Shown: piece by piece, positions 9,946-14,275 of the stretch
Numbering within the stretch: position 1 is the first letter of the stretch
How the letters are laid out: the number at the start of each line of letters is the position of its first letter
Assembly (NCBI RefSeq): GCF_025398335.1
Contig: NZ_JAODOO010000002.1
Coordinates: 248,001-312,000 of the forward strand
DNA from: Clostridium sp. CX1
GTDB taxonomy: Bacteria; Bacillota; Clostridia; Clostridiales; Clostridiaceae
Length of the DNA stretch: 64,000 nucleotides
Direction of reading: 5' to 3'
Program-made: the position numbers and the translations under genes
The notes under the pieces: generated by a model
What the model was told of the DNA's origin: nothing
Seen by the model: only the letters and a program-made list of their open reading frames with translations
Databases searched by the model: none

Positions 9946-10833
9946 ATGAGAGATTTTACAATTATTACTGATAGTTGTTGTGATTTGCCTATTACATCCA
10001 TTAATGAACTAAACATTCCCTACGTAAGTTTAAGCTATCATTATAATGAAATTGAAAGATTAGATGACTTTGGTACAAGCTATTCACTTAAAAATTTTTA
10101 TGATGACATGAGGTCTGGTGCTGTTCCTAAAACTTCACAGCCAAGCAGTCATTTATTCTGTCAAGCTTTTAAAAAAATTCTAGATGAAGGGAAGGATATT
10201 CTATATATAGGTGCATCTAGTGGATTAAGTGGTACTATAAACGGAGCGAATATAGCTAAAGATATGCTTGAACAAGACTATCCAGATTATAATATATATA
10301 TCTTAGATATTTTAACTGCATCTTTAGGACAAGGTTTAATGGTTCTAAAAGCAAAAGAAATGCAAAATGAAGGAAAATCAATAGAAGAGATTTTTAATTA
10401 TTTGCTAGCCATTAGACAAAACTTAAATACTTATATGATAGTGGATGATATTAATCATGTAAAAAGAGGAGGAAGGATCTCTTCCGCCGCAGCCTTTGTC
10501 GGTATGCTTTTAAACATTAAGCCATTCTTGTCCATAAGTGATTCAGGAAAGGTTGTTGCCTTGGACAAAATTAGAGGGAGAAAAAGAGCCATAAATGCGC
10601 TTTTTGAAAAAATATTAGAAAAGATAGAAAATGCTGAGGATCAAATTATTGCTATTTCCCATGGTGACTGCATTGAAGATGCCTTAGCCTTGAAAAAGCT
10701 AATATTAAGTAAGATACCTGTAAAAGATGTGCTTATAAGTTTTATCGGTCCTGTGGTTGGAACTCATGGGGGACCTGGGGCTATAGCAGTATTTTTTTTA
10801 GGAAAAGAAAGAGAGCTTCACAGAGAATCTTAA
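9946..10833 (+). CDS. DegV family fatty-acid-binding protein
   Basis: About 295 residues, the normal length for DegV proteins. It begins MRDFTIITDSCCDLP, contains KTSQPSSHLFCQAF (the fatty-acid carboxylate-binding TSQPS motif), YIGASSGLSGT, VKRGGRISSAAAFVG and the C-terminal FIGPVVGTHGGPGA, all hallmarks of the family. Members bind fatty acids and, as FakB, present them to the kinase FakA for phospholipid synthesis. No FakA gene is in the window. Two adjacent ATG codons exist; GAGG is 7 bases before the second (9946) and only 4 before the first (9943). Confidence 0.92.
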   Translation: MRDFTIITDSCCDLPITSINELNIPYVSLSYHYNEIERLDDFGTSYSLKNFYDDMRSGAVPKTSQPSSHLFCQAFKKILDEGKDILYIGASSGLSGTINGANIAKDMLEQDYPDYNIYILDILTASLGQGLMVLKAKEMQNEGKSIEEIFNYLLAIRQNLNTYMIVDDINHVKRGGRISSAAAFVGMLLNIKPFLSISDSGKVVALDKIRGRKRAINALFEKILEKIENAEDQIIAISHGDCIEDALALKKLILSKIPVKDVLISFIGPVVGTHGGPGAIAVFFLGKERELHRES

Positions 10834-10861
10834 ATCTGTAAAATGAAAATATATTTTAAAA

Positions 10862-10895
10862 AAGGGCTGAGATTTTTTCTCAGTTCTTTTATTTT
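10862..10895 (+). terminator. Intrinsic terminator of the DegV gene
   Basis: An 11-bp stem (AAGGGCTGAGA with TCTCAGTTCTT, two G-U pairs) with a T-rich loop, followed by TTTATTTTG. Confidence 0.75.
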
Positions 10896-10970
10896 GTATA
10901 TTATTGTATAATTAGTATATAAATCATGACTTTTTTTTAACAATTTATAATTAAGAAAGGATGTTTAAAT

Positions 10971-11246
10971 ATGATAGTTTCTATTGATGAAAAAACTGTT
11001 CCTTTACTAAAAGAAATGCTTAAGGTACAAAATAAGGAAGCGGTAAGGATATCAAAATCCGGTGTAGGATGAGGAGGCCTTCAACTGGAAATTGTTCTGG
11101 ATGAACAAAAGCCTAATGATGATATAGTCATAGATCATGATATTAAAATCATAGCAGATAAAAGCTTTTCCTTCTTTTTTACCAGTGCACTAATTACTCA
11201 CAAGGAAGGTATTTTCGGACCTAGATTTAAACTGGTGTCAAGGTAA
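10971..11246 (+). CDS. HesB/IscA-like protein with in-frame UGA, probable selenoprotein
   Basis: A 91-residue reading frame interrupted only by TGA at 11070-11072 (codon 34). It starts with ATG after AAGAAAGGATG and ends at TAA 11244-11246. Around the TGA the peptide reads ISKSGVG-U-GGLQLEIVLDE, where U falls where HesB/IscA proteins carry the first metal-binding Cys of the G-C-x-G loop. The downstream part (IVIDHDIKIIADKSFSFFF ... GIFGPRFKLVS) fits a small Fe-S biogenesis-type fold. A HesB-like selenoprotein family with GxGUGG is known from clostridia. A possible bacterial SECIS hairpin follows: AAC (11083-11085) / GTT (11094-11096) with an 8-base loop having G at position 2, starting 16 bases from the U of UGA. 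The alternative is a recent nonsense mutation. An automatic caller would miss or split this gene. Confidence 0.78.
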
Positions 11247-11360
11247 TTAAATATCTATCTTTCCTATAAAGGCAGCAAGACATTTCATTCTCCCTAGTAA
11301 AAACACCTCTTATAATATATCAGAAAATGAATACTTTATTGCAGTTTAGAAAAGATGAAC

Positions 11361-11398
11361 AATGTAGAATTTTTAACATATGTTTAAAATTCTACATT
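11361..11398. repeat. 38-bp near-perfect palindrome upstream of adhE
   Basis: AATGTAGAATTTT (11361-11373) is matched by AAAATTCTACATT (11386-11398). The centre AACATATGTT is itself palindromic, leaving only a T-T mismatch on each side. There is no following T-tract, so it is not a normal terminator. It could terminate weakly after the HesB-like gene, bind a dimeric regulator or form a cruciform. Confidence 0.6.
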
Positions 11399-11485
11399 AT
11401 AACTTAAAGATTTTAATATTTTCCCATGAAAATATTTTTCTCATGAAATAATATTAATTTTTTCTATAAAGTGGTAAAAAAGTAA

Positions 11486-11514
11486 TTGACAGAGTATGGA
11501 TAATATTGCATAAT
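11486..11514 (+). promoter_or_regulatory. Predicted promoter of adhE
   Basis: Perfect TTGACA (11486-11491), a 17-base spacer and CATAAT (11509-11514). It predicts a transcription start near 11521 and a leader of about 125 bases before adhE. Confidence 0.6.
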
Positions 11515-11520
11515 ATTATT

Positions 11521-11600
11521 CATAGCCGTAAGATTCAGAAATTTTTAGTTTGTCTGAATTTTTACTAAATTGCACTGGATAATCCAGGTGCTAATCATAA
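11521..11600 (+). promoter_or_regulatory. Structured adhE leader with attenuator-like hairpin
   Basis: Within the predicted leader, ATTCAGA (11533-11539) pairs with TCTGAAT (11553-11559), and the stem runs directly into TTTTT, like an attenuator. Just after it, CTGGAT-A-ATCCAG, flanked by GCA and GTGC, forms a second hairpin (about 11571-11593). No known riboswitch class is recognised. Confidence 0.4.
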
Positions 11601-11647
11601 AATTATTAAATTAATTTTAAAAGTAATTAGAAAGAGGTGTGTTATAC

Positions 11648-14275
11648 ATGAGAGTAACTAATGTTGAGGAATTAATGAAAAAATTACAGGAGGTAAAATC
11701 TGCACAAAGAATATTTTCCACTTTCACTCAAGAACAGGTTGATGAAATTTTTAGACAAGCTGCTATGGCTGCAAATGCAGCAAGAATTCCACTTGCAAAG
11801 ATGGCTGTCGAAGAAACTGGTATGGGAATAGTTGAAGATAAGGTTATAAAGAATCACTTTGCTTCTGAATATTTATACAATAAATATAAAGACGACAAAA
11901 CCTGCGGGGTTCTAGATTGTGATGCTGGTTTTGGTATTACTAAAGTTGCAGAACCTATCGGAGTAGTTGCTGCTGTTGTACCAACAACTAACCCAACTTC
12001 AACTGCAATATTTAAGTCCTTGTTAGCGCTAAAAACTAGAAACGGAATAATATTCTCCCCTCACCCTAGAGCTAAAAAATCAACTATAGCTGCAGCTAAA
12101 TTAATTCTTGATGCAGCAGTTAAAGCTGGAGCTCCAGAAGGTATAATTGGTTGGATAGATGAACCTACAGTTGAACTATCTCAGGTTATAATGAGAGAGG
12201 CAGATATAATACTTGCAACTGGTGGTCCTGCTATGGTTAAAGCTGCTTATTCATCCGGTAAGCCAGCAATTGGTGTTGGTCCTGGTAATACTCCTGCCAT
12301 TATAGACGAAAGTGCTGATATAAAAATGGCTGTAAACTCAATACTTCTTTCTAAAACTTTTGATAATGGAGTTATATGTGCTTCTGAACAATCCGTTGTA
12401 GTTGCAGATTCCGTTTATAATGAAGTTAGAAAAGAGTTTGAAGAAAGAGGTGCCTATCTCCTAAAGGAAGATGAAGTAGAAAAGGTTGGTAAAGTAATAT
12501 TAGTTAATGGCAACATTAATGCAAATATAGTTGGACAACCTGCTTACAAAATAGCTGCAATGGCAGGAGTTACTGTTCCTCAAAGTGCAAAGGTTCTTAT
12601 AGGAGAAGTAGAGTCCGTTGAGCTAGAAGAGCCATTCTCCCACGAAAAACTTTCTCCTGTTCTTGCTATGTATAGAGCTAAGAATTTTGACGATGCTGTA
12701 AAAAAAGCTGCGAGACTTGTTGAATTAGGAGGACTGGGTCATACGTCAGTATTGTATGTTAATGCGATGGCTTGTAAGGATAAAGTAGAAAAGTTTACTG
12801 CTGCTATGAGAACAGGCAGAACTTTAATTAACATGCCTTCATCACAGGGTGCTATAGGAGATATCTATAACTTTAAACTAGCTCCTTCATTAACATTAGG
12901 CTGTGGATCCTGGGGTAATAACTCTGTTTCAGAAAACGTTGGACCTAGACACTTAATAAATATAAAAACTATAGCTGAAAGAAGGGAAAATATGCTTTGG
13001 TTTCGAGTTCCAGAAAAGGTTTACATTAAATACGGAAGTCTTGGAGTAGCATTACAAGAACTTAAACCCCTTGGAAAGAAAAAAGCATTTATAGTAACTG
13101 ATAAGGTTCTTTTTGAACTTGGATATGTAGATAAAGTTACAAAAATTCTTAGTAAAATAGGTGTTGACTATAAAGTGTTTACTGATGTAGAACCAGATCC
13201 AACTTTAGAAACAGCTAGAAGAGGTACCGAGCAGTTAGCAAGTTATAAACCAGATACAATTATAGCAGTTGGCGGTGGTTCCGCTATGGATGCTGCCAAG
13301 ATTATGTGGGTAATGTACGAGCATCCAGAAGTAAGATTTGAAGACTTAGCAATGAGATTTATGGATATAAGAAAGAGAGTTTACACCTTCCCTAAGATGG
13401 GCGAAAAGGCTATGATGATATCAGTAGCAACATCCGCTGGTACTGGTTCAGAGGTTACTCCTTTCGCAGTTATAACTGATGAAAAAACAGGAGTTAAATA
13501 TCCATTAGCAGATTATGAGTTAACTCCAGATATGGCTATCGTTGATGCTGAATTAATGATGGGTATGCCAAGAGGTTTAACTGCTGCTTCTGGTATAGAT
13601 GCTTTAACTCATGCTGTTGAAGCTTATGTATCTGCTTTAGCAACAGATTTCACTAATGGACTAGCATTAGAAGCTGTAAAAATAATATTTGAATACCTTC
13701 CACAGGCTTATAATGAAGGTCAGACTAATATAGTAGCAAGAGAAAAAATGGCTCATGCATCCTGTATAGCTGGTATGGCATTTGCTAATGCTTTCTTAGG
13801 TGTATGTCACTCAATGGCTCATAAGCTCGGCTCAACTCACCACGTACCTCATGGAGTAGCTAATGCACTATTGATCAACGAAACTATAAGATTTAATTCA
13901 GTAGATGCTCCAACAAAGCAATGTACTTTCCCTCAGTATAAATATCCAAACGCTAAAGCTAGATACGCTAAGATAGCGGATACCCTTTGCTTAGGCGGAA
14001 GCTCTGATGAGGAAAAAGTAGAATTATTAATCGAAGCTATTGATGAGCTAAAAGCTAAGGTAAACATGCCAAAATCAATACATGAGGCAGGAGTTAAGAC
14101 AGAAGCTTTTTATGCTAATCTTGATAAGATGGCAGAGCAGGCTTTCGATGACCAATGTACAGGAGCTAATCCAAGATACCCATTAATCAGCGAAATTAAG
14201 CAAATGTATATTAATGCCTTTGATAAAGCAGAAGTAATTTTAGAAGCTGCGGCAACAGATGAGGAAGAAGAATAA
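11648..14275 (+). CDS. adhE: Bifunctional acetaldehyde-CoA/alcohol dehydrogenase AdhE
   Basis: An 875-residue fusion enzyme. Residues ~1-440 are a CoA-acylating aldehyde dehydrogenase with the nucleotide-binding run VVAAVVPTTNPTSTAIF and catalytic Cys244 in NGVICASEQS. Residues ~450-870 are an iron-dependent group III alcohol dehydrogenase with AVGGGSAMDAAK, SAGTGSEVTPFAVI and Fe-ligand histidines in HSMAHKLGSTHHVPHG (His721, 725, 735). It converts acetyl-CoA to ethanol (or butyryl-CoA to butanol) in two NADH-using steps, regenerating NAD+ during fermentation. The start is ATG 11648, with AGAGGTG upstream; the in-frame GTG at 11639 overlaps this binding site. It is preceded by a promoter and structured leader and followed by a strong terminator. 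AdhE usually forms filaments (spirosomes). Confidence 0.96.
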   Translation: MRVTNVEELMKKLQEVKSAQRIFSTFTQEQVDEIFRQAAMAANAARIPLAKMAVEETGMGIVEDKVIKNHFASEYLYNKYKDDKTCGVLDCDAGFGITKVAEPIGVVAAVVPTTNPTSTAIFKSLLALKTRNGIIFSPHPRAKKSTIAAAKLILDAAVKAGAPEGIIGWIDEPTVELSQVIMREADIILATGGPAMVKAAYSSGKPAIGVGPGNTPAIIDESADIKMAVNSILLSKTFDNGVICASEQSVVVADSVYNEVRKEFEERGAYLLKEDEVEKVGKVILVNGNINANIVGQPAYKIAAMAGVTVPQSAKVLIGEVESVELEEPFSHEKLSPVLAMYRAKNFDDAVKKAARLVELGGLGHTSVLYVNAMACKDKVEKFTAAMRTGRTLINMPSSQGAIGDIYNFKLAPSLTLGCGSWGNNSVSENVGPRHLINIKTIAERRENMLWFRVPEKVYIKYGSLGVALQELKPLGKKKAFIVTDKVLFELGYVDKVTKILSKIGVDYKVFTDVEPDPTLETARRGTEQLASYKPDTIIAVGGGSAMDAAKIMWVMYEHPEVRFEDLAMRFMDIRKRVYTFPKMGEKAMMISVATSAGTGSEVTPFAVITDEKTGVKYPLADYELTPDMAIVDAELMMGMPRGLTAASGIDALTHAVEAYVSALATDFTNGLALEAVKIIFEYLPQAYNEGQTNIVAREKMAHASCIAGMAFANAFLGVCHSMAHKLGSTHHVPHGVANALLINETIRFNSVDAPTKQCTFPQYKYPNAKARYAKIADTLCLGGSSDEEKVELLIEAIDELKAKVNMPKSIHEAGVKTEAFYANLDKMAEQAFDDQCTGANPRYPLISEIKQMYINAFDKAEVILEAAATDEEEE

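Follow-up and report, generated by a model that had tools for sequence, protein, structure and literature searches.

Selenoproteins of the HesB-like kind are already on record: 11 were counted in 2006, together with two Sec-to-Cys conversions (PMC1794560), and a UxGP motif is listed for them (PMC13188914). PMC11097638 gives no established function for these proteins; it describes a member from Methanococcus maripaludis, found through mutagenesis and 75Se labelling, whose disruption did not impair nitrogen fixation, the latter reported by its authors as an unpublished observation. The ligand set of A-type proteins is given as Cys-Xn-Cys-X-Cys in PMC7144353. The original prediction for the locus described below treated a HesB-like selenoprotein family as established knowledge, and PMC1794560, PMC13188914 and PMC11097638 agree with it.

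The locus lies in a window of 64,000 nucleotides from the genome of Clostridium sp. CX1, and very probably contains a working selenoprotein gene, in which UGA codon 34 would be read as Sec via a SECIS hairpin at 11092-11108 and whose product would be a divergent A-type protein. The 91-codon frame that had been predicted is present as described, running from ATG to TAA at 10971-11246 with a TGA at codon 34 as its sole interruption. Read through, it encodes a protein with one Sec, zero Cys and the motif U-G-G-L at the Sec. The features of the gene are as follows.

10971..11246, plus strand: probable HesB/IscA-like selenoprotein gene, 91 codons, Sec at 34, no Cys
11070..11072, plus strand: UGA codon 34, probably read as Sec; TGA or Cys in relatives, Sec machinery in the genome
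10956..10961, plus strand: probable ribosome-binding site AAAGGA, 9 nt 5' of the ATG, as read from the sequence
11092..11108, plus strand: putative SECIS hairpin at 25 nt from the UGA, with stem TTGTTC/GAACAA closing the loop TGGAT (11098-11102)

A frame scan of the window returned eight frames in which a single TGA joins at least 30 codons before it to at least 50 after it. By eye, the other seven of the eight resemble antisense or composition noise, one of them extending a transporter-like gene upstream. The interruption of 10971-11246 is judged to be more than chance, recurring at the same codon in the assemblies of other species.

As in the TIGR01911 family (HesB_rel_seleno), the window gene encodes a small HesB/IscA relative with UGA at the first conserved Cys and has Cys-containing homologues; it differs in having U-G-G-L where that family has UxGP, in lacking the C-terminal Cys and in scoring under the family cut-off. 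TIGR01911 is its best NCBIfam family (50.5 bits, E 2.4e-13; cut-off 66.35), and the match, although below the cut-off, spans residues 2-88, so that the peptide is family-like on either side of the TGA, as had been proposed. Scores against NF038090 (33.2 bits vs a cut-off of 85) and Pfam PF01521 (18.2 vs 26.3) are lower. A profile of 10 relatives matches solved A-type structures (2apn, 1.2e-6; 1nwb, 2.4e-5; 1s98 and 1r94, both ‘yfhF’, E 4e-5 and 6e-5), and in the alignments to 2apn, 1nwb and 1s98 the Sec is in register with the Cys of GCSG, which places the TGA, as predicted, at the metal-binding Cys of HesB/IscA proteins in the GxG-U-GG loop. Homology of the window protein to the IscA, SufA and ErpA carriers is weak and extends over most of its length, with the Sec corresponding to their first cluster-binding Cys; their Cys-Xn-Cys-X-Cys set is reduced to a single Sec or Cys in the clade of the window protein. 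A structure model made from three sequences has a mean pLDDT of 42.8, too low for use.

This clade comprises 14 of the 46 rows of our tree (support 100/100). None of its 14 rows has a Cys after residue 70, vs 31 of the 32 rows outside. It consists of eight Sec rows and six Cys rows, two of the latter (L079, L113) scored as Cys by reading and the other four by a script rule, and the tree needs four Sec/Cys changes over its labelled rows. A Cys is found four residues before the Sec in L017, L019, L026 and L029; the window protein has Ser at this position. The same genome carries, outside the window, two further HesB-like genes, which belong to two other subfamilies; both genes keep UxGP and the C-terminal Cys.

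C12:83098-83358, minus strand: HesB-like selenoprotein gene (L015), in-frame TGA; SECIS model match with four of six pairs
C12:233211-233396, plus strand: HesB-like selenoprotein gene (L016), in-frame TGA; SECIS model match; Cys-rich C-terminus

All five clade relatives that were scored singly are below the TIGR01911 cut-off (L018, 45.6; L019, 37.5; L021, 49.4; L024, 47.0; L026, 44.3). Among the UxGP relatives scored, L015, L025 and L028 are also below it and only L016 is above, so the cut-off alone does not separate the clade. HesB-like selenoproteins as a kind are not new, and the window gene is a divergent branch of the known family; a literature search of partial coverage, mostly of titles, returned no title or abstract on a HesB-like branch without the C-terminal Cys.

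A search for relatives across 206 family genomes gave matches at E 0.001 or better in 89, and codon 34 was read in the 34 best-scoring loci (L014-L047) rather than in all matches; these include the window gene as L014, and L020 is a duplicate of L018. Homologues had been expected to carry U or C at codon 34 if the Sec reading was right: in the relatives read the codon is TGA or Cys, and the sequence past it is conserved, not degraded. The nearest TGA relatives among these loci are two copies in Clostridium magnum (L017, L019) and one in Clostridium sp. OS1-26 (L018, genome G098). A Cys codon is found in the same-genus genomes G095, G094 and G097 (L021-L023; 70-73% identity) and in G122 (L024; 52% identity), and G099, of the same genus, has no close orthologue. 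In-frame TAA codons flagged in L022 and L023 are simply where these genes terminate. Comparisons of the window gene with L017, L018 and L019 gave dN/dS values of 0.118, 0.111 and 0.085 for the part preceding the TGA; for the part following it the values are 0.109, 0.033 and 0.075. All are rough, since the sequences are short and the synonymous sites of L018 near saturation. Ratios of about 0.1 on both sides indicate that the part after the TGA is selected as protein.

Across 225 genomes of the order, 43 match in a profile search at 1e-15. Ten matches to the clade profile exceed 140 bits and come from nine of the 225 genomes, all of the window's family, while three genomes of another family give weak matches of 60-66 bits. 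When 398 genomes sampled from the whole phylum were searched, no genome other than that of the window passed E 1e-18, and a search of IMG/VR viral contigs returned no relative. Locus L081 carries a tandem pair of HesB-like genes (L081:9466 and L081:10343), one with Sec and an intact SECIS, the other with Cys and a broken SECIS.

The host genome (G000; 71 contigs, 99.97% complete) encodes the complete Sec-decoding trait. The original prediction had proposed a search of the rest of the genome for selA, selB, selD and tRNA-Sec, and all four were found on contig C10 as one cluster within ~5 kb, in the order given here.

C10:51549-52466: selD, family cut-off passed
C10:52789-54141: selA, family cut-off passed
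C10:54207-56099: selB, family cut-off passed
C10:56250-56342: tRNA-Sec, family cut-off passed; identified by ARAGORN as tRNA-Sec with anticodon TCA

The selD gene at C10:51549-52466 itself has one in-frame TGA; Sec-containing SelD is a known type. Of 20 genomes tested, 13 have selA. It is absent from G196 and G202, both with Cys in the HesB-like gene, and present in G094, G095, G097 and G122, all likewise with Cys. Its presence in these four despite a Cys gene indicates that Cys and Sec have been exchanged without loss of the Sec machinery in some lineages. The direction Sec to Cys is favoured, because Sec is commoner in the wider tree and the Cys genes L021-L023 keep a TGGAT loop on a broken stem.

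The published bSECIS model, as set out in PMC13188914, has a stem of 4-16 bp, a loop of 3-9 nt with G in one of its first two positions, a distance of 16-37 nt from the UGA and an MFE at or below -7.5. The hairpin at 11092-11108 keeps all four constraints: its arms (TTGTTC, 11092-11097; GAACAA, 11103-11108; relative positions 23-39 from the TGA) form 6 bp around a 5 nt loop with G at position 2, 25 nt from the UGA, and the folding energy is -10.9 kcal/mol for 11070-11115 and -7.5 for 11086-11115. It departs from most bSECIS loops, which form an N1-N2 pair, in having U/U there. For comparison we assembled 35 TGA sequences, comprising the window gene, 26 loci from L015-L047 and 8 copies from further fetched stretches, and 7 Cys sequences, and counted pairs at a fixed distance from the TGA; L079, missed by the motif rule, is absent from this Cys set. 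Paired cells number 203/210 in the TGA sequences vs 23/42 in the Cys sequences. Four additional copies gave 6/6 pairs each for L111 and L114 (TGA), and 4 and 3 for L113 and L079 (Cys). An alternative hairpin, AAC at 11083-11085 with GTT at 11094-11096, had been put forward as a possible SECIS and does not hold up: with a stem of 3 bp, and 13 nt separating UGA and loop, it falls short of the model's minimum of 4 bp and spacing of 16-37 nt, and its three pairs are kept in only 6 of the 35 TGA sequences, window included. The loop of the conserved hairpin (11098-11102) lies 12 bases beyond that of the AAC/GTT hairpin.

To assess covariation, the window was set aside, 30 of the remaining 34 TGA sequences were aligned, and 500 shuffles served as the reference. 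Paired cells amount to 97.8% (shuffled, 90.9), cells changed on both sides number 12 (shuffled mean, 2.2), and covariation scores 0.234, against 0.108 in the shuffles; none of these was reached in any of the 500 shuffles, and slid versions of the stem come nowhere near. The number of pairs with a double change (3 of 6, reached in 33/500 shuffles) and the number of further pair types (4, reached in 475/500) do not stand out. Compensatory changes convert UUGUUC/GAACAA, for example, to UUGCUC/GAGCAA or UAACUC/GAGUUA, and the encoded residues then change too. The stem is kept by compensation in TGA genes and broken in the Cys forms. The conserved peptide accounts for part of the conservation of the hairpin: synonymous codons drawn with the peptide kept give a mean of 155.7 paired cells and a maximum of 169 in 300 draws, vs 203 in the real sequences. 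The window gene taken alone forms six pairs in 3432 of 20000 codon shuffles, and the case for the hairpin therefore comes from the set of sequences and not from the window by itself. Codon choice in the loop is also distinctive, the Leu codon that gives the loop its TG being CTG in 35/35 TGA sequences and 0/7 Cys sequences. Elsewhere in 27 of the TGA genes, CTG accounts for 5 of 147 Leu codons, and across 34 long window ORFs its share of the Leu codons is 5.2%.

A covariance model built from 30 sequences, with the window excluded, recovers the window site at E 1.6e-13, the next best match having E 3.8. Applied to the whole genome, with scores computed for 150 of the 3398 first-look candidates, it has strong matches at three sites, each in one of the HesB-like genes (E from 2.4e-13 to 2.5e-11), followed by E 0.04; this model was built from orthologues and both of the genome's own paralogues, and is thus not independent of protein homology. 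The weak matches at C45:201682 and C67:27543 (E ~0.04) were rejected as lying outside open frames, and that at C14:7504 (E 0.85) as having no TGA at its first codon. A search of 10500-11700 against Rfam gave three matches, all far under gathering scores.

The predicted Sec reading of codon 34 is thus upheld by the Sec machinery, the TGA/Cys relatives, the conserved downstream sequence and the covarying SECIS. If the TGA were instead a nonsense mutation or a sequencing error, the gene would be a pseudogene; its frame is formally broken, and its scores under the curated cut-offs mean that an annotation pipeline may call it a pseudogene or miss it. Conservation across species refutes this explanation, to which we give practically no credence: the TGA occupies the same codon in independent assemblies, purifying selection is as strong past it as before, and the SECIS is conserved and covaries. 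A functional gene could also have its UGA read as Trp or Cys in another way, through a recoded genome or a UGA-misreading tRNA. Relatives without the TGA do have Cys, and none of the 43 mechanical ORFs of at least 150 codons in the window ends in TGA, which is therefore rare as a stop here. Set against this are the full Sec machinery, the disruption of the SECIS in those Cys relatives that were read, and the lack of Trp at codon 34 in all 46 tree rows, and we consider such a reading highly improbable. One of the C. magnum copies appears to end in a TGA stop (L017:5277-5279), where TGA would serve as both Sec and stop.

With UGA 34 decoded as Sec, the 6-bp hairpin and its UGGAU loop, which lie within the coding sequence, would be bound by SelB. 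By homology, the product would be an A-type (IscA/HesB) protein with Sec at the first of the three cluster-binding Cys positions. IscA forms dimers or tetramers, and by analogy the window protein, which would have an A-type fold, would likely do the same. Since the branch has no C-terminal Cys, the usual binding of a [2Fe-2S] cluster by three cysteines is probably closed to it; iron or a labile cluster destined for transfer may be bound at the oligomer interface, where the single selenolates of at least two subunits would come together. We put the chances that the protein is such an iron or labile-cluster carrier at roughly even, arguing from the missing Cys. The main alternative, somewhat less probable and still a serious contender, is a selenolate redox enzyme or a sulfur/selenium carrier. 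It would suit a protein with one Sec and zero Cys from a clade in which 0/14 rows have a C-terminal Cys, and the authors of PMC13188914 think that most uncharacterised selenoproteins serve redox functions. It fits less well with the A-type sequence and the GxG-U/C-GG loop, which are kept, and with the lack of a conserved resolving Cys, the Cys four residues before the Sec being Ser in the window protein.

A role tied to a single partner could involve the neighbouring gene, an 878-codon ORF at 11639 on the plus strand that we take from its sequence to be adhE. Upstream, a gene ending at 10833, presumably degV-like as read from its sequence, is followed by a possible terminator.

10860..10890, plus strand: terminator-like hairpin after the degV-like gene (consensus scan, 2 sites vs 0.2 expected)

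This hairpin speaks against transcription of the selenoprotein gene from degV. On the other side, 392 bp separate the selenoprotein gene from adhE, and this gap, with a promoter-like site at 11486-11514 (in a scan that was near chance overall, 10 sites vs 6.2 expected), suggests that adhE is possibly transcribed on its own in the window. An AT-rich inverted repeat at 11359-11401, noted by eye between the two genes, is possibly a terminator or regulator site of adhE.

The original prediction placed the selenoprotein gene directly upstream of adhE. This is correct for the window, where adhE is the next gene on the same strand; the arrangement is seen in this genus only. All six same-genus carrier genomes (G000, G094-G098) have adhE on the same strand near the HesB-like gene, adjacent in G000, G096 and G098 and ~7.5-8.4 kb away in G094, G095 and G097, where the intervening ORFs are, from our reading of them, presumably trp genes. 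In Clostridium sp. OS1-26 and at the C. magnum L017 copy, adhE ends ~75-80 bp before the HesB-like gene. In one C. magnum stretch (L048; G096:C3:187000-206999), three consecutive adhE genes are interspersed with, and followed by, the two HesB-like selenoprotein genes. No adhE above 300 bits was found in 26 stretches outside the genus, four of which carry clade members, within a reach of at most ~10 kb on each side. A dedicated AdhE helper, delivering for example iron to the alcohol dehydrogenase site, would account for the recurrence of adhE on the same strand, adjacent or within ~8.4 kb, and for the close spacing at the OS1-26 gene and one of the two C. magnum copies. It sits poorly with the stretches outside the genus, with the trp genes that intervene in three genomes and with the gap and promoter-like site before adhE in the window, and shared ancestry of the neighbourhood explains the proximity; we regard such a helper as improbable. 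A functional tie between HesB-like protein and AdhE is possible but weak, the neighbourhood being explained by shared descent.

Tentatively, and at odds that we judge to be unfavourable, the clade may be a distinct, unmodelled A-type branch in which a single selenolate or thiolate replaces the three-Cys site and does all of the metal or chalcogen chemistry, possibly with a tie to AdhE. A branch with one reactive residue would be the simplest system for studying the role of selenium on the HesB scaffold, and the same genus offers matched Sec and Cys versions in six genomes, all with selA.
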